Assembly: GCA_020343875.1 (NCBI GenBank)
Contig: CP070811.1
Span: forward strand, 3,781,229-3,845,228
DNA: 64,000 bases
Source of the DNA: Anaerolineales bacterium
GTDB taxonomy: Bacteria > Chloroflexota > Anaerolineae > 4572-78 > NAK82
Direction of reading: 5' to 3'
Numbering within the stretch: the stretch's first letter is position 1; each line of letters starts with the position of its first letter. Below are positions 20,285 through 47,305 of this stretch, one piece after another. Under the pieces are notes generated by a model. It was given only the letters and a program-made list of their open reading frames with translations. It had not been told where the DNA came from and made no database searches. Both the position numbers and the translations under genes were made by a program.

Positions 20285-20540
20285 CACCGTTATGCATGGT
20301 AACATACCCTCAAGCAGGTAGGCAATATGCACTGGCAGCGGCGCGCCAGCCGCCCGAAGGCGGGTGGCGTGCGCTCTGGTGAGCGTGGGGGAAGACCGGT
20401 GCCCCGGATCCTTTGCCTGGGGAAGGGAAATCCGGCGCTGTCCCGCAACTGTGAGGTCAGTAGACAGGATCATTGTCGAGGAGAAAGCTTCTTGACTTCG
20501 GATACCTGACCAAGCCAGAATACCCACCTCTGCCATTGCT
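20285..20540 (+). ncRNA. Cobalamin riboswitch aptamer
   Basis: The conserved core is clear: GGGGGAA, CCGGTG, AAATCCGG, then CTGTCCCGCAACTGTGAG (20443-20460 region), and the 3' element CAAGCCAGAATACCCACCT. This matches the B12-box class (adenosylcobalamin type). An extra hairpin (CCCCGG...CTGGGG) of about 25 bases separates GGTG from AAATCC, where typical members have only a few bases. It precedes an ECF-type transporter operon, so cobalamin uptake should be shut off by its own substrate. Boundaries are approximate. Confidence 0.88.
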
Positions 20541-20560
20541 CTGTACAACCTTCGTGGAAA

Positions 20561-25476: not shown

Positions 25477-28092
25477 TCAGACAATCTCCACCGTTCCAGC
25501 GCTACCGTCAATGCACAGCCTCTGGCCGGTGTGGAAGATTTTGGTCGCTCCTTCGATGCGCAGCACGGCGGGTATGCCATACTCCCGGGCCACCACAGCT
25601 CCGTGAGAGAGCAGCCCTCCCTCCTCAATAACGATACCCCCCGCGAGGTTGAAGATAGGTGTCCAGCCGGGGCTGGTGTAGCGAGCGATCAGGATCTGGC
25701 CCCGCTGTAAGGCGCGGGCTTCGGCCAGCGTCTCTACCACGCAGGCTGGGCCTTCTGCTCGCCCGCTGCTGCATGGAATGCCCTCAAAAACCCGTTGGCC
25801 GGGCTGGATGACCAGCTTGCGAATGCTTGCCCCCAGGCCGATGACGCTGGGTGGCTCAAAGGTTCGGTAGCAGACTTTCAGGCGTAGGTAGCTTTGTACC
25901 TGATTGCGCAGGCTCTCGGCGGATGCTTTCCTGTCGAGAAAAGCCTGGATGGCTGGCCAGCGCAATAGAAAGATGTGATCCGGCTTTTCGAGGATGCCAC
26001 TGGTTGCCAAACGACCACCAAGCTCCTTGTAGAAACGCCGACATTGATAAAAGGCGCGTGAAGCGATGACGCGTGTCTCCTCTCGCCACCAAACGTAACG
26101 CCGAACCAGGCGCAATTGTTTGATGAAAGAACGCCGGCCAAACGGCCACAGCCGCCGCCAACTCCGCGATAGAGTCTCCAACACACGTCGCTCAGCTGTC
26201 CGACGCACCTGCCGCTGAGTCTCTAATTGGCGTGCTGGGTCCACCGATTCATCAGCACGAGCATAAGCCTGCAAAGTCGAAAGCACAAAGCTGGGATCTT
26301 CATCCCAGCGGGGCAGGCTGAGGTCTTCGTCTGTAGGAGCCATATAATGATACCGCTCCAGGTAGTTCTGCAGCTGCAACCCAAAGGCGTGGCCGGCCTC
26401 GGTAGCCTGCAGGTGTTGGAGGATGTTGTCCGGGTCGCCTTCGGTCACCGAAACTGCTACATGGGGGTCATCCAGGGCGGCACGAGCCAGTTGCCACAGC
26501 TCAAGCGTGGGCTGAGCAGTGCGCACATCGCTCAGCCCGGTGATCAAATCTCCTTCCACGATGCGCTGAGCGGGCGGCAGGGTAGCGTTCAGGCGACGGA
26601 CCATCGGTTCAAAGTCGTCTTGAGCCTGGGTTGAAAGGAGGCTAACCGTGATAGCCGTGCCGTTCGCTTCCCAATGCACCTTAGCCATCAGCTTGCAGTA
26701 ATTAGCTAGTTCCTCATCCGACAGCGAGGCTGGGTCCACGTTCGCCAGGGCTGGCTCAACCTGGTTCAAAAAGCGATCCCGGTAGGCACGTCCTTTGAGC
26801 CAAGCGTTTTTGAATTGGTCGTTGAGAGCGAACAGGATGGGCAACCCGCGCAGGATGTTTCGGGGTGACCAGGGAGTAGTCAGACCGTCTCCCTCGTAGG
26901 TGGGCTCAATCCCAACCGTTTGATCGAAGACGCGCTCCTTAAAGCCGGGGACTAGGGCGGCGAATTGTTTGACGACGCCTACGTTCCAGTAAGCTCGCCC
27001 GAAGAATGGCTTTCCCCATACCGTGCCAGATGGGGCTTCGCCCATTTTGATCTCACGAAAGAACTCGCTGAGTGCTCGTCCGTAGTCATGTTCCAGGCTC
27101 AGCGATATGGAAAGCGGGCTGGCAAAACCTGGCAGCACCTCCCGGTAGTTACCTGAGGTCCATTGACCCAGGCTGGGGTCGAAGCTGAATGAGGTCATCG
27201 GGCGTGTTTGTAGCAGGGCGAAGGTCCCATCTATAAGCGCCCACTCGATATCTTGTGGATACCCGTAGATGGTTTGCACCTGATAGCCAAGCTCTGTTAG
27301 GGCCAGCAGTTGTTGGTCGCTGAGAACGGGGCAGCCCTGGGTTTCGGGCGGCAGGACCTCTTCTTGCACCCCCCCATCTTGGCTGGCTACTAAAACGATG
27401 GCTTGGTTGGCGATGTCGCGGGTCAATACCCGGCGGTCATGGGCATTGACTACGTAACGATCGGGCGTCACTCGACCTGAGACAACCGCCTCGCCCAATC
27501 CCCAAGCGGCTTCAATTACCATCTCTTCTTCGTGTCCGGTTAACGGGTTGAGCGTGAAGAGGACGCCAGCCGCTTGGGCTCGTCCCTGGCGCTGCACCAC
27601 CACGCCCATATCAGCCTGGAATGGGTCGAGACCTTGCTCCTGCATATAGGCCAGGGCACGTTCGCTCCAAAGTCCCGCCCAGCAGGAGCGCACCCTATCC
27701 AGTACCGCCTGGGCGTTGGTTACGTTGAGGAAAGTGTCGTATTGACCCGCAAAGGAGGCATCTTGGCTATCCTCCGCGGTGGCCGAAGAGCGGACAGCCA
27801 CTGGGCCGTCAAGCTCCTGATAGGCCTTGAGGATGGCATGGGCTACAGTCTCGGGGAACTCAGCCGCCGTGATGCGATCCCGCACGGCCGCCCTGTCGCA
27901 TGCCTCAACCGCTGTCATGAGTCCGTTGTATGATAAAAAGGCACGATAGGCGCCCGTTGTCACGCAAAAGCCAGGCAGTACCGCCAGGCCAGCCTGGGCC
28001 ATCTCGGCCAAGTGTAATCCCTTGCTACCCACCAGCTGCCTGTCATCTTGGCCCACCTGGTCAAATCGCAAGACAAACGGCTCATTCTGCAT
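25477..28092 (-). CDS. PEP-synthase-like / rifampin-phosphotransferase-like enzyme
   Basis: An 871-residue dikinase-type phosphotransferase. The N-terminal ATP-grasp domain (about 1-320) has VGSKGLHLAEM, VAVRSSATAEDS and DIEWALIDGTFALLQTRPM. A central helical domain (330-765) follows, and the C-terminal swivelling phosphohistidine domain has GGLLSHGAVVAREYGIPA with His830. The PEP-binding TIM barrel of true PEP synthase is absent and the His domain is last. This ATP-middle-His order and length match rifampin phosphotransferase (RPH), but the family includes members with other small-molecule substrates, so resistance is only a possibility. Translation start is ATG 28092. It lies 44 bases after a class III aminotransferase on the same strand. 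Confidence 0.85.
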   Translation of the reverse strand: MQNEPFVLRFDQVGQDDRQLVGSKGLHLAEMAQAGLAVLPGFCVTTGAYRAFLSYNGLMTAVEACDRAAVRDRITAAEFPETVAHAILKAYQELDGPVAVRSSATAEDSQDASFAGQYDTFLNVTNAQAVLDRVRSCWAGLWSERALAYMQEQGLDPFQADMGVVVQRQGRAQAAGVLFTLNPLTGHEEEMVIEAAWGLGEAVVSGRVTPDRYVVNAHDRRVLTRDIANQAIVLVASQDGGVQEEVLPPETQGCPVLSDQQLLALTELGYQVQTIYGYPQDIEWALIDGTFALLQTRPMTSFSFDPSLGQWTSGNYREVLPGFASPLSISLSLEHDYGRALSEFFREIKMGEAPSGTVWGKPFFGRAYWNVGVVKQFAALVPGFKERVFDQTVGIEPTYEGDGLTTPWSPRNILRGLPILFALNDQFKNAWLKGRAYRDRFLNQVEPALANVDPASLSDEELANYCKLMAKVHWEANGTAITVSLLSTQAQDDFEPMVRRLNATLPPAQRIVEGDLITGLSDVRTAQPTLELWQLARAALDDPHVAVSVTEGDPDNILQHLQATEAGHAFGLQLQNYLERYHYMAPTDEDLSLPRWDEDPSFVLSTLQAYARADESVDPARQLETQRQVRRTAERRVLETLSRSWRRLWPFGRRSFIKQLRLVRRYVWWREETRVIASRAFYQCRRFYKELGGRLATSGILEKPDHIFLLRWPAIQAFLDRKASAESLRNQVQSYLRLKVCYRTFEPPSVIGLGASIRKLVIQPGQRVFEGIPCSSGRAEGPACVVETLAEARALQRGQILIARYTSPGWTPIFNLAGGIVIEEGGLLSHGAVVAREYGIPAVLRIEGATKIFHTGQRLCIDGSAGTVEIV

Positions 28093-28136
28093 TCAACTCT
28101 CCCGCGCCCAGTCAGGAACACCTAGCCATGTGATTC

Positions 28137-29417
28137 CTACACAACCCCCACATCGGGAATCAATTCTAGCATTCCGGGATGCGCCGTGAGGAAATCCAAC
28201 GAACGATCCAGTGCTTCTAGCACAAAGTCTACTTCGCCAGGCTGAATGATGAGAGGAGGCATAATCTGGATGGTGCTGGGCCGATGATTTGCAAACACGG
28301 CCAGCACGCCGTTCTGAGCTAGGGCGATGGACATGGCGGGTCCCATGCGAGCATCCACCAATTCGAAGCCGATCATCAGCCCCCGCTGGCGCCAACCAGC
28401 GACGATCTCATAGCGTGAACGCAACTCGGCGAAGCCATCCTCAAAGCGATTTCCCATGGCCTGGACATGCTCCATAAAGCCCGGTTCAGTAATCTGGTCG
28501 AGCATAGCCAGGGCAGTCACGCAGCCCAACGCCGCCCCACCAAAGGAGGAGAGGTGGATGAAGGGGTTGGCCTGAAAAAAGGCGTCCAGGTGGGGCCGAT
28601 GACAGGTGGCTGACATAGGATAAAGTGCGCCGCTGAGCCCCTTGCCGCTAACCAGAATGTCGGGCACTACATCCCACTCTTCGATGGCCCACATGCGGCC
28701 AGTCCGCCCCAGCCCTGATTGGACCTCGTCAACGATGAATTGTGTATGCCAGGCATCGCAGATCTGACGCACACGGGGGTAGTAGTCGTCAGGCGGGAAG
28801 AGCATGCCGCTCGTGGCCGGTATGGTTTCCACGATGACCGCCGCTGTCTCCTTGTTCACTGCTGCTGCTAGCGCCTCGGCGTCGCCGAAGGGGACCTTGC
28901 TGAAACCCGGCGGCATGGGTCCAAACTTGTTCCGGAAAGAGTCTTCGCCTGTCGCCAGGGCAAATCCGGTGTGGCCGTGGTAGCCTCCCTTCACTGAGAT
29001 GACACCTGGTCGCTGGGTGTAGCCTCTGGCCAGCTTGATGGCCACGTCAATCGCCTCAGCGCCGCCGGGTGAGAAAGTGGAATACTGAATGTCTCCGGGT
29101 GTGAGTTGGGCCAGACGCCTGCCCAGTTCGGCCCGCATTTCGTCCAGCAGCATATGATCGCCTATATCAATCTCGTCCAATGCCGTCTTCAAGGCTTTGA
29201 CCAGCAGGGGTGGGCGGTGGCCCAGGTTGAAAACGCCCCCAGAACAGCGGCAGTTAAGCAGTTTGCGACGACCATCTATATCCCAAAGCCACACGCCTTC
29301 GCGTCGGCCTGGCACAAAGTCAAGCCCCATCTGTTTGAAGACAGACACGCGCCCGGGATTCACGTAACGAGAGTAATCTTCGAGGATCTGCTGCTTGGGT
29401 TTTTGGCCGATGAACAT
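28137..29417 (-). CDS. Class III (ornithine/GABA-type) aminotransferase
   Basis: A 426-residue PLP enzyme of fold type I, class III. Landmarks are STFSPGGAEAIDVAIKLAR, GGYHGHTGFAL, VDEVQSGLGRTGRMWA and the PLP lysine in LVSGKGLSGALYP. ATG 29417 is used because GAGGGA lies about 10 nt upstream; ATG 29435 has no SD. It is followed by an RPH-like phosphotransferase, so both may act on an amine or amino-sugar compound. Substrate assignments such as acetylornithine, putrescine or beta-alanine cannot be separated here. Confidence 0.88.
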   Translation of the reverse strand: MFIGQKPKQQILEDYSRYVNPGRVSVFKQMGLDFVPGRREGVWLWDIDGRRKLLNCRCSGGVFNLGHRPPLLVKALKTALDEIDIGDHMLLDEMRAELGRRLAQLTPGDIQYSTFSPGGAEAIDVAIKLARGYTQRPGVISVKGGYHGHTGFALATGEDSFRNKFGPMPPGFSKVPFGDAEALAAAVNKETAAVIVETIPATSGMLFPPDDYYPRVRQICDAWHTQFIVDEVQSGLGRTGRMWAIEEWDVVPDILVSGKGLSGALYPMSATCHRPHLDAFFQANPFIHLSSFGGAALGCVTALAMLDQITEPGFMEHVQAMGNRFEDGFAELRSRYEIVAGWRQRGLMIGFELVDARMGPAMSIALAQNGVLAVFANHRPSTIQIMPPLIIQPGEVDFVLEALDRSLDFLTAHPGMLELIPDVGVV

Positions 29418-29481
29418 TTGAATGCCGTCCCTCATGTTTGAAAATAGCTGCGAAAGGCTCCCTCAGGGGCAAAGTCGGCCC

Positions 29482-29639: not shown

Positions 29640-29668
29640 TTGACAGGGGGCGAATTTTGTGAGATAAT
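29640..29668 (+). promoter_or_regulatory. Sigma-70 promoter of the leader/HypE-like transcript
   Basis: TTGACA (29640-29645), 17-base spacer, GATAAT (29663-29668); 11 of 12 consensus positions match. Start near 29675, giving a leader of roughly 235-280 bases. Confidence 0.85.
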
Positions 29669-29723
29669 ACGCCTGTCAAGAGAATACTCACCTCTCTTAC
29701 CTGATCTTGCTATCCTAGGACAA

Positions 29724-29907
29724 GGAGGTGATGCTAGTGGACCATTGTAGTAGCAGTCCGTGCGCCGTAGCGTCACCTCCGGTTATCCGGTAGAACGCTA
29801 CGGCGCGACAGGGGGCCTCTTCCGAATAGGGGGAGGTCCTTTGTTTGTGTGTAGCGAGTCCTGTGTGGTAAAATCCCCCTTGGTGAAAGAATCCCCTCTG
29901 GAGGTGA
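29724..29907 (+). promoter_or_regulatory. Leader with one anti-SD octamer and two SD octamers
   Basis: GGAGGTGA occurs at 29724-29731 (leader peptide SD) and again at 29900-29907 (SD of the HypE-like gene). TCACCTCC at 29773-29780 is the exact complement of both. It lies in the 23-base loop of an 11-bp perfect stem (29762-29772 with 29796-29806). The octamer could therefore hide one SD or the other, a layout that would allow translational switching. No ligand-binding riboswitch class was recognised. Confidence 0.55.
29731..29793 (+). CDS. Putative 20-codon leader peptide
   Basis: AAGGAGGTGA (29722-29731) is directly followed by a short open frame, ATG 29731 or better GTG 29737 (8-base spacing), ending at TAG 29791-29793. 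The predicted peptide contains two Cys and several Ser. It lies between a strong promoter and the HypE-like gene, and its codons overlap the hairpin and anti-SD described next. Too short for homology; translation is inferred from the SD. Confidence 0.4.
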   Translation: MLVDHCSSSPCAVASPPVIR

Positions 29908-29952
29908 GACATAAAAGACTGTATCCCCATTGGCAAGTTACCTGCCGAGCAG

Positions 29953-30924
29953 TTGGTTCGCCTGTTGGACAAGCACGTGCGCCCCGACCCGCGCCTCATC
30001 GTCGGTGCCCGGCTGGGTGAAGACGTGGCAGTGATTGATATGGGAGATCGCTACCTGGTAGCCAAGACTGACCCTATCACCTTCGCGACTGACGAAATTG
30101 GCTGGTATGCGGTCAACGTCAATGCCAATGACGTGGCATGTGCCGGGGCTGTGCCACGCTGGTTCCTGGCAACCCTACTCTTGCCCGAAGGTAAGACCGA
30201 TGCTAACTTGGTGGCGACCATCTTCGAGCAGATGGCCGAGGTATGTGATCAGCTGGATGTGACACTGGTAGGCGGTCACACGGAGATCACCTATGGGCTC
30301 GGCCGACCGGTTGTAATAGGACATATGCTGGGTGAAGTGGCGCCTGACCGTTTCGTGGCAACCGCTGGTGTGCGCGTTGGAGACGATATCATCGTAACTA
30401 AGGGAGTGGCGGTGGAAGGAACGGCCATCATCGCTCGTGAAAAGCAAGGTGATCTGGAGGCAGTCCTGAGTGCGGAGTATCTGGAGCGGTGTCAAGGTTT
30501 CTTGCACAACCCCGGAATCAGCGTGGTACGCGACGCCCAGGTTGCCCAGAAGGCTGGGACGGTCCACGCAATGCACGACCCGACTGAGGGAGGATTGGCA
30601 ACCGGCCTGTGGGAGATGTCTCAGGCAGCCGGAGTGGGTCTGGAAATCAATGAAGCAGCCATCCCTATCTTCCCAGAGACGGCGGTGTTGTGCGCCCGAT
30701 TTGGCCTCGATCCCCTGGGGGTGATTGCCTCTGGGGCTTTGCTGATTGCCTGTCCCCCAGCGGAGACAGAGGCTATTCTAGGAGCATTGAAAGGTGACGG
30801 GATTCAGGCCGCGCTTCTGGGGCGAGCCGTGGAGAAAAACCAGGGGTGTAGACTGATTGGACCACGTGGTGCGCATCCCCTACCAACGTTTGCGCGAGAT
30901 GAGATTGCTCGTCTTTTTGAATAA
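29953..30924 (+). CDS. AIR-synthase-related (HypE/PurM/SelD superfamily) protein
   Basis: At least 323 residues of the HypE/PurM ATP-binding fold. Seen are GEDVAVIDMGDRYLVAKTDP, NVNANDVACAGAVPRWF, LVGGHTEITYGL and HDPTEGGLATGLWEMS. It lacks the C-terminal Cys of hydrogenase HypE, so it is probably one of the stand-alone relatives of unknown substrate. TTG 29953 is the first standard start codon, but the frame is open back to 29908, and residues encoded from 29911 (IPIGKLPAEQLVRLL) look like the true N-terminus, placed right behind GGAGGTGA at 29900-29907. A non-AUG start (ATA 29911 or ATT 29929) is therefore likely. Confidence 0.85.
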   Translation: MVRLLDKHVRPDPRLIVGARLGEDVAVIDMGDRYLVAKTDPITFATDEIGWYAVNVNANDVACAGAVPRWFLATLLLPEGKTDANLVATIFEQMAEVCDQLDVTLVGGHTEITYGLGRPVVIGHMLGEVAPDRFVATAGVRVGDDIIVTKGVAVEGTAIIAREKQGDLEAVLSAEYLERCQGFLHNPGISVVRDAQVAQKAGTVHAMHDPTEGGLATGLWEMSQAAGVGLEINEAAIPIFPETAVLCARFGLDPLGVIASGALLIACPPAETEAILGALKGDGIQAALLGRAVEKNQGCRLIGPRGAHPLPTFARDEIARLFE

Positions 30925-46099: not shown

Positions 46100-47305
46100 C
46101 TAAATCCTCCGGATCGCCACGGCGACCGCCTTCAGGCTGAGCGGTTGCCCGTAGCGCAACATGCCAGCCCGGAAAACCCGCGCCGCTGCCCACACCATAA
46201 GGAACACACTGGCGACTAGCAATACCCAGCTCAGGCTCAACTGCCAGGCAGGGATGGTGCCCAGGCCCCAGCGGAGGGAAATGGTCAAGAAGGCAGTGGC
46301 GGGAAAAAGCGTGAAGAAGACGACTGCCGGGTGAGCAGGATTATTGAAGATAACGGGCGTCAGGAAGAGCGGGAGCAAGAAGAACAGGTTCAGAATGGCG
46401 GCTACTTGCTGGCCCTGCTGCATCTCCGTCACCGCCCCACCAATCGCCACCATGACCGCCGAAATGAGAGCATATGCAGGCAAAAAGAAGAGAGCAATCA
46501 CCCCTAGATAGGCCCACGGCACTGTAGCTTGCTGTGATGCTGGCACAAACCCTACACCTGCTTTTAATCCCACCACCACGGCCATGATGTAAATGAAGAG
46601 CTGGGTCAAGGTCACCCCCAGCAGGCCCGCTGCCTTGCCCCCGATAAGCTGTCCGGGCGCCAAGGAGGTGACCATGATCTCCATTGTCCTGTTTTCCTTT
46701 TCATCAGCTACCACCCGGAGCATGTAGCTGGCGGCTGACATGGTTGCAATAAGGAAGAGAAAGCTGGCGGCAAGCGGCAAGATGATGTTGATCACGTCAT
46801 TATTGCTGAATTCTCGACCGTTGACGATGTCCTGCACGGTGATGCTGGGGCCTTCCAGCAGCCGCGCCTGTATCTCATCTGGTAGGGTGCTGACCAGACT
46901 GAGGCGCACAAAGTCGTTAAACTCGTCCCAGGTGTCGTCACTGGGTGGTTTTGCCAGATAGTAAAGATGTGTCTGGAGCGTTTGCGGGTAGTCTGGGGGA
47001 AAGACAAAGAAAGCCTGTATCTCCTCGCCTTCCAGAGCAGTCAGGGCAGCTTCTTCATTTGGAAAAGAGCGGACTTGGATATGCACGGCGGTATCGGGCA
47101 GGGGAGGCGATGGTGAATCATCCAAGATACCGGCCTTGTCCACATACCCCAGGGGAAGCTTGTTCTCACTCAGCGTCTCTACTAAAATGCCCAGCGCGAC
47201 CAACATCACAATCCCTAACGGGATGGCGATAGTACCGATCACAAAGCCGCGCCTGACCACCATGCGACGATATTCGTGCTTGGCGACCAACCAGAAGTTA
47301 CGCAT
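46100..47305 (-). CDS. ABC-2 type transporter permease (NatB-like), first subunit
   Basis: A 401-residue ABC-2 permease, paralogous to its neighbour: N-terminal FWLVAKHEYRRMVVRRGFVIG, extracytoplasmic domain, then VVADEKENRTMEIMVTSLAPGQLIGGK and five helices. ATG 47305 has GGAGG 9 nt upstream and overlaps the ATPase stop by 8 bases. NatAB-type pumps export Na+ or peptide antibiotics; the substrate is not evident here. Confidence 0.9.
   Translation of the reverse strand: MRNFWLVAKHEYRRMVVRRGFVIGTIAIPLGIVMLVALGILVETLSENKLPLGYVDKAGILDDSPSPPLPDTAVHIQVRSFPNEEAALTALEGEEIQAFFVFPPDYPQTLQTHLYYLAKPPSDDTWDEFNDFVRLSLVSTLPDEIQARLLEGPSITVQDIVNGREFSNNDVINIILPLAASFLFLIATMSAASYMLRVVADEKENRTMEIMVTSLAPGQLIGGKAAGLLGVTLTQLFIYIMAVVVGLKAGVGFVPASQQATVPWAYLGVIALFFLPAYALISAVMVAIGGAVTEMQQGQQVAAILNLFFLLPLFLTPVIFNNPAHPAVVFFTLFPATAFLTISLRWGLGTIPAWQLSLSWVLLVASVFLMVWAAARVFRAGMLRYGQPLSLKAVAVAIRRI

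Follow-up and report, generated by a model that had tools for sequence, protein, structure and literature searches.

The 64-kb stretch of Anaerolineales DNA analysed here (64,000 nucleotides; hereafter the window) has, at roughly positions 29640–29849, a small RNA gene that is free-standing, and it is probable that this is a stand-alone RNA gene of the Chloroflexota forming a self-contained translational switch that acts in cis on its own micro-ORF. The RNA would be about 130–170 nt long and its sole product a peptide of 14–20 residues. The gene carries the first of two copies of the Shine-Dalgarno (SD) octamer GGAGGTGA (29724–29731; the other is at 29900–29907, both on the plus strand) together with the anti-SD TCACCTCC (29773–29780), at the positions that a preliminary description of this DNA had reported. 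Only one further octamer copy is present in the window, at 46664, compared with a chance expectation of 2.7, such that three of the four octamer copies fall inside 184 nt. The parts of the element and its downstream neighbour are as follows.

29640–29668, plus strand: sigma70-type promoter TTGACA-17-GATAAT, 11/12 matches, with TG before the −10 box
29678–29698, plus strand: 5′ hairpin AAGAGA/TCTCTT, lineage-specific, with a second anti-SD copy CTCACCTC (29687–29694) in its loop
29709–29715, plus strand: conserved box GCYATCC upstream of the SD
29723–29734, plus strand: extended Shine-Dalgarno AGGAGGTGATGC, near-invariant, the 5′ strand of helix P1 (P1 99% paired, n=88)
29737–29793, plus strand: micro-ORF of 18 codons plus TAG (at 29791) with a GTG start, VDHCSSSPCAVASPPVIR
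29762–29772, plus strand: 5′ arm of the P2 hairpin, GCGCCGTAGCG, with covariation at all eight core pairs
29770–29779, plus strand: anti-SD GCGTCACCTC inside the micro-ORF, the 3′ strand of P1, with conserved pairing
29779–29790, plus strand: small apical hairpin P3 (CCGG TTAT CCGG) just 5′ of the stop codon, from the sequence and full-RNA minimum-energy folds
29796–29806, plus strand: 3′ arm of the P2 hairpin, CGCTACGGCGC, the competitor recapturing the anti-SD side, from covariation and folding
29808–29849, plus strand: intrinsic terminator, stem 29808–29844 with a T-rich tail, dG −26 kcal/mol
29911–30924, plus strand: HypE-like AIR synthase gene, a downstream neighbour outside the element

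The predicted transcription start lies near 29675. Promoters with at least 9/12 matches were found upstream of 75 of 87 relatives (8/87 in shuffles), and terminator-like hairpins downstream of 85 of 87 (23/87 in shuffles). The 5′ hairpin is absent from copies such as L015 and L077, in which the −10 box abuts the next box. In the minimum-energy fold of the full-length RNA from the window, the second anti-SD in this hairpin is base-paired to the SD and could mask it again there, albeit not as a universal property of the element; CACCTCC stretches resembling it occur in several order-level relatives (L009, L017 and L085), not class-wide. Some folds also contain a helix that joins the GCYATCC box to the region of the stop codon; it was rejected, since on visual inspection it does not hold up in the copies that carry GCCATCC. 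The promoter, the terminator standing between the element and HypE, the second anti-SD and the unusual HypE start codon (see below) had all been missed in the preliminary description.

The open frame of 20 codons first proposed to begin at the SD is indeed open from an ATG at 29731 to the TAG at 29791, although the conserved start is the GTG at 29737, leaving 18 codons. Judging from the relatives, nearly all of which have ATG at this next in-frame codon, the start actually used is almost certainly that at 29737, which gives the usual SD spacing. The distance from the start codon to P2 is 19, 22, 25 or 28 in 85 of 88 copies, such that length changes come in threes and the frame stays in phase, and in 87 of 88 no stop interrupts frame 0 across the anti-SD, with the other frames open in 9 and 1. 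The frame is lost in L020, another frame passes over the anti-SD in L130 and L131, and the stop is lost in L172; the L020 genome is a single contig with a completeness of 77%, and its frame loss is thus possibly a sequencing indel. In almost every copy the stop of the micro-ORF precedes the end of P2 by 8–27 nt, and the encoded peptides are 14–20 residues long. Serine codons in the micro-ORFs of the 88 copies comprise 126 AGT, 28 AGC and 7 TCT, and the preference for AGT is strong near the micro-ORF start (GTAGTA motif).

Some of these properties could be expected of a gene for a genuine micro-protein or signal peptide, in which the product matters and the RNA structure merely tunes its translation. 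The frame and stop are kept, pN/pS is 0.42 in the part of the micro-ORF outside the helices, and there is a recurrent M-D-x-S-S start with serine AGT codons, all of which fit such a gene. However, P1, P2 and P3 dictate much of the peptide, its sequence differs between classes (AVASPxxR versus GVTAGEAR), and two copies read another frame over the anti-SD; we therefore regard a micro-protein as possible, albeit on the unlikely side.

The proposed cis-acting switch involves two helices. P1 pairs the SD, GAGGTGATGC, with GCRTCACCTC inside the ORF, and P2 pairs the stretch just 5′ of the anti-SD (GCGCCGTAGC) with GCTACGGCGC, 3′ of the stop codon. Both helices are paired in every cell of a MAFFT alignment of the first 20 sequences, and with 88 sequences 99.2% of helix cells are paired, dropping to 20–62% in slid controls. 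All of the core pairs of P2 (8/8) change on both sides among the 88 sequences, and P1 and P2 together have 98 doubly changed cells compared to 16 in shuffles, with the qualification that alignment A5 was fitted to P2. Covariation in P1 is modest because the SD side is held by ribosome binding; one pair changes from AU to GC in five of the 88 sequences, and P1 covariation in other-class copies amounts to three cells. Covariation supports the SD:anti-SD helix more weakly than the recapture hairpin.

Other families have a compensatory P1 change (GGTGGTGC/GCACCGCC), and in other-class copies P1 takes the form GGTGATGCCC:GGGYRTCACC and is 97% paired; the SD:anti-SD helix is conserved with compensatory change, as in an SD/anti-SD translational switch. 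P2 in the latter takes up the anti-SD itself (TCACCG:CGGTGA, 97.6% paired) and can cover the whole of it, and in several other-class copies (among L149, L154–L157 and L179–L194) its 3′ arm duplicates the SD side (GGTGATGCC), so that one anti-SD has two near-identical partners. The earlier picture, in which a micro-ORF led by an SD traverses an anti-SD and the RNA can adopt two states, is thus supported, in that the frame is conserved and the SD:anti-SD pairing and the hairpin are conserved with covariation. TCACCTCC does sit on the loop side of the hairpin 29762–29772/29796–29806.

These comparisons also bear on whether the element is a trans-acting small RNA, whose anti-SD or SD-like 3′ arm would pair with other mRNAs or with ribosomes, the micro-ORF only gating exposure. 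A free-standing gene, usually in single copy and with its own promoter and terminator, is what such an RNA would have, and the near-maximal complementarity of the SD to 16S counts for it too; TCACCTCC is identical to the core of the 16S 3′ tail. Yet the anti-SD tracks its own SD and not the invariant 16S tail, as the GGTGGTGC/GCACCGCC change illustrates, and Chloroflexia-type copies without CCTCC carry GGTGATGCCC/GGGYRTCACC, which makes action in trans unlikely.

Thermodynamic folding, which allows neither for pseudoknots nor for the fact that some hosts are thermophiles, gave P1 with a masked SD in 84 of 88 RNAs folded only up to the stop codon, and when the 3′ arm was added P2 was preferred in 81 of 88, by a mean of 6 kcal/mol. 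Most of ten copies from other families, Chloroflexus aurantiacus included, show the same shift from prefix to full length; L181 and L189 keep P1 pairs at full length. P1 and P2 overlap by only 2–5 nt in the class, and a pseudoknot holding both is therefore possible, such that a two-state reading is not forced. By its sequence, the anti-SD inside the ORF is complementary both to the upstream SD (P1, the masked form) and, directly or by overlap, to P2. Based on the folds, we propose the following course. The nascent RNA would be silent, its SD masked during synthesis; upon completion of the transcript the 3′ arm of P2 would appear and the SD would be freed; and each translating ribosome would melt the anti-SD strand, resetting the choice between P1 and P2. 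We also consider, as a rather unlikely extension, that the RNA has a housekeeping role throughout the phylum as a sensor of termination or of how available ribosomes are; a strong SD would compete with an in-cis mimic of the 16S tail, and the resulting state would act in trans.

Nascent SD masking is also a feature of type I toxin mRNAs of the hok kind, and a free-standing transcript with folding-controlled translation of a short ORF, as inferred here, would fit one. The sampled peptides (14–19 aa, GRAVY −1.0 to 0.6) are not hydrophobic membrane peptides, however, and in contrast to typical toxins the element is usually single-copy in genomes throughout the class; a toxin mRNA is extremely improbable.

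The preliminary description had assigned the switch to the downstream HypE-like gene, with translation controlled through the second SD at 29900 as the target of the anti-SD. About 17 of the 88 copies, belonging to several families, have HypE downstream and co-oriented, which is above the expectation for random neighbours, and GGAGGTGAG precedes HypE in both the window and its nearest relative. However, the octamer at 29900 is kept only in that relative and is absent from the HypE SDs of other linked relatives (L021, L022 and L006), a terminator of about −26 kcal/mol intervenes, with stems and T-tails equal in linked and unlinked copies, and most copies have no HypE downstream. Many HypE homologues lack the element in turn; there was no convincing copy in 14 other genomes with such homologues (Nitrospirota, Planctomycetota and other). 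In 63 copies without HypE the 1 kb downstream contains an ORF of 150 aa or more, and in 41 of these 63 that neighbour is convergent; the element is thus not a leader there. A leader-peptide switch for HypE is therefore very unlikely. Attenuation of HypE by way of a weaker terminator was ruled out, as linked and unlinked terminators are equally strong.

Comparison of the octamer pairs across relatives thus upholds the pairing of 29724 with 29773, which is conserved and covaries (more weakly than the hairpin), but not the octamer at 29900. The real second partner of the anti-SD is the 3′ arm of the P2 hairpin, an SD-like copy in other classes. The preliminary description saw a real feature and assigned it to the wrong gene.

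Two observations concern the neighbouring genes. The HypE-like start at 29911–29913 is ATA, and in the nearest relative (L002) the same SD is followed by ATG; the ATA may reflect rare start-codon usage, a start that has been lost or a mistake in the sequencing. On the minus strand, at 25477–29435, a PEP-synthase-like/ligase protein whose best matches, to RedH/PigC and rifamycin phosphotransferase, are far below the cut-off is encoded beside a class III aminotransferase that matches PigE below the cut-off, and the two genes are possibly a small biosynthetic pair.

Of 61 relatives searched at the DNA level, 27 have the stretch 29700–29845, and they extend to other families within the class. A covariance model (R1) finds the element in 244 of the 396 class genomes, with rare exceptions as a single copy; because the element is nearly self-complementary, some seeming second copies are antisense matches. 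A second model (R2) was derived from copies of other classes; among 301 phylum genomes it matches 41 at E values up to 0.001, and R1 matches 55 of the same 301, some weakly; the weak phylum matches L153 and L158, which have no SD, were dropped, and L150 and L164 are uncertain. The element is present in Chloroflexus aurantiacus (L179) and Herpetosiphon aurantiacus (L157), from other Chloroflexota families, and L180 and L181 presumably correspond to Roseiflexus sp. RS-1 and Chloroflexus aggregans. In 99 Planctomycetota control genomes R1 gave one marginal match (L178, E 2.7e-4), judged to be chance, and R2 none; there were no matches in 99 genomes from the phylum of a Desulfobacteraceae MAG.

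This RNA gene is thus usually single-copy, is kept phylum-wide, including in the model phototroph Chloroflexus aurantiacus, and is absent from Rfam; with its frame and two competing helices under selection, a basic function is probable. Known parts (SD masking, a micro-ORF and a recapture hairpin) are combined in a gene that stands alone and has no downstream target, an arrangement that known leader models leave unexplained and that cultivable strains allow to be tested.

No Rfam family reached threshold on the element, either in the window or in 12 relatives, and searches of the window at E values up to 10 gave only chance-level matches on it, to SSRC10 (23.8 bits, threshold 56) and CC2171. 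Elsewhere in the window a Cobalamin riboswitch is present at 20347–20545 (RF00174, 41.4 bits). 6S RNA was rejected because the 6S RNA of this genome is located elsewhere (67.6 bits), and an amino-acid attenuator because P2 and the terminator are separate stems and there is no conserved downstream gene. A literature search found no description of the element.

SD-sequestering switches, such as riboswitch expression platforms and erm-type leaders, likewise have an SD:anti-SD helix taken over by another strand and may include a short ORF, although the element controls no downstream gene in most genomes and has its anti-SD inside its only ORF. It has no aptamer, and some copies begin right at the box before the SD. 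The hok-type mRNAs are also free-standing short mRNAs with translation gated by the folding path; the element, however, is predicted to be silent while nascent and open once complete, the peptide is not membrane-like, and the gene is single-copy and phylum-wide. The uORF and Downstream-peptide motifs (PMC8632094, PMC2864571) are structured RNAs with a conserved micro-ORF too, but those described in the available parts of the two reports are associated with neighbouring genes or belong to different phyla, without a match in sequence or architecture. For Chloroflexus aggregans an RNA motif, Chloroflexi-1 (RF01698), has been reported (PMC2864571); in the window and 12 relatives the element is below the threshold of this and every other Rfam family. 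On this analysis the element would work like the SD/anti-SD switches while belonging to no described family that could be tested, and we interpret it as a new RNA, free-standing and spread across the phylum, whose micro-ORF is gated at the level of translation.
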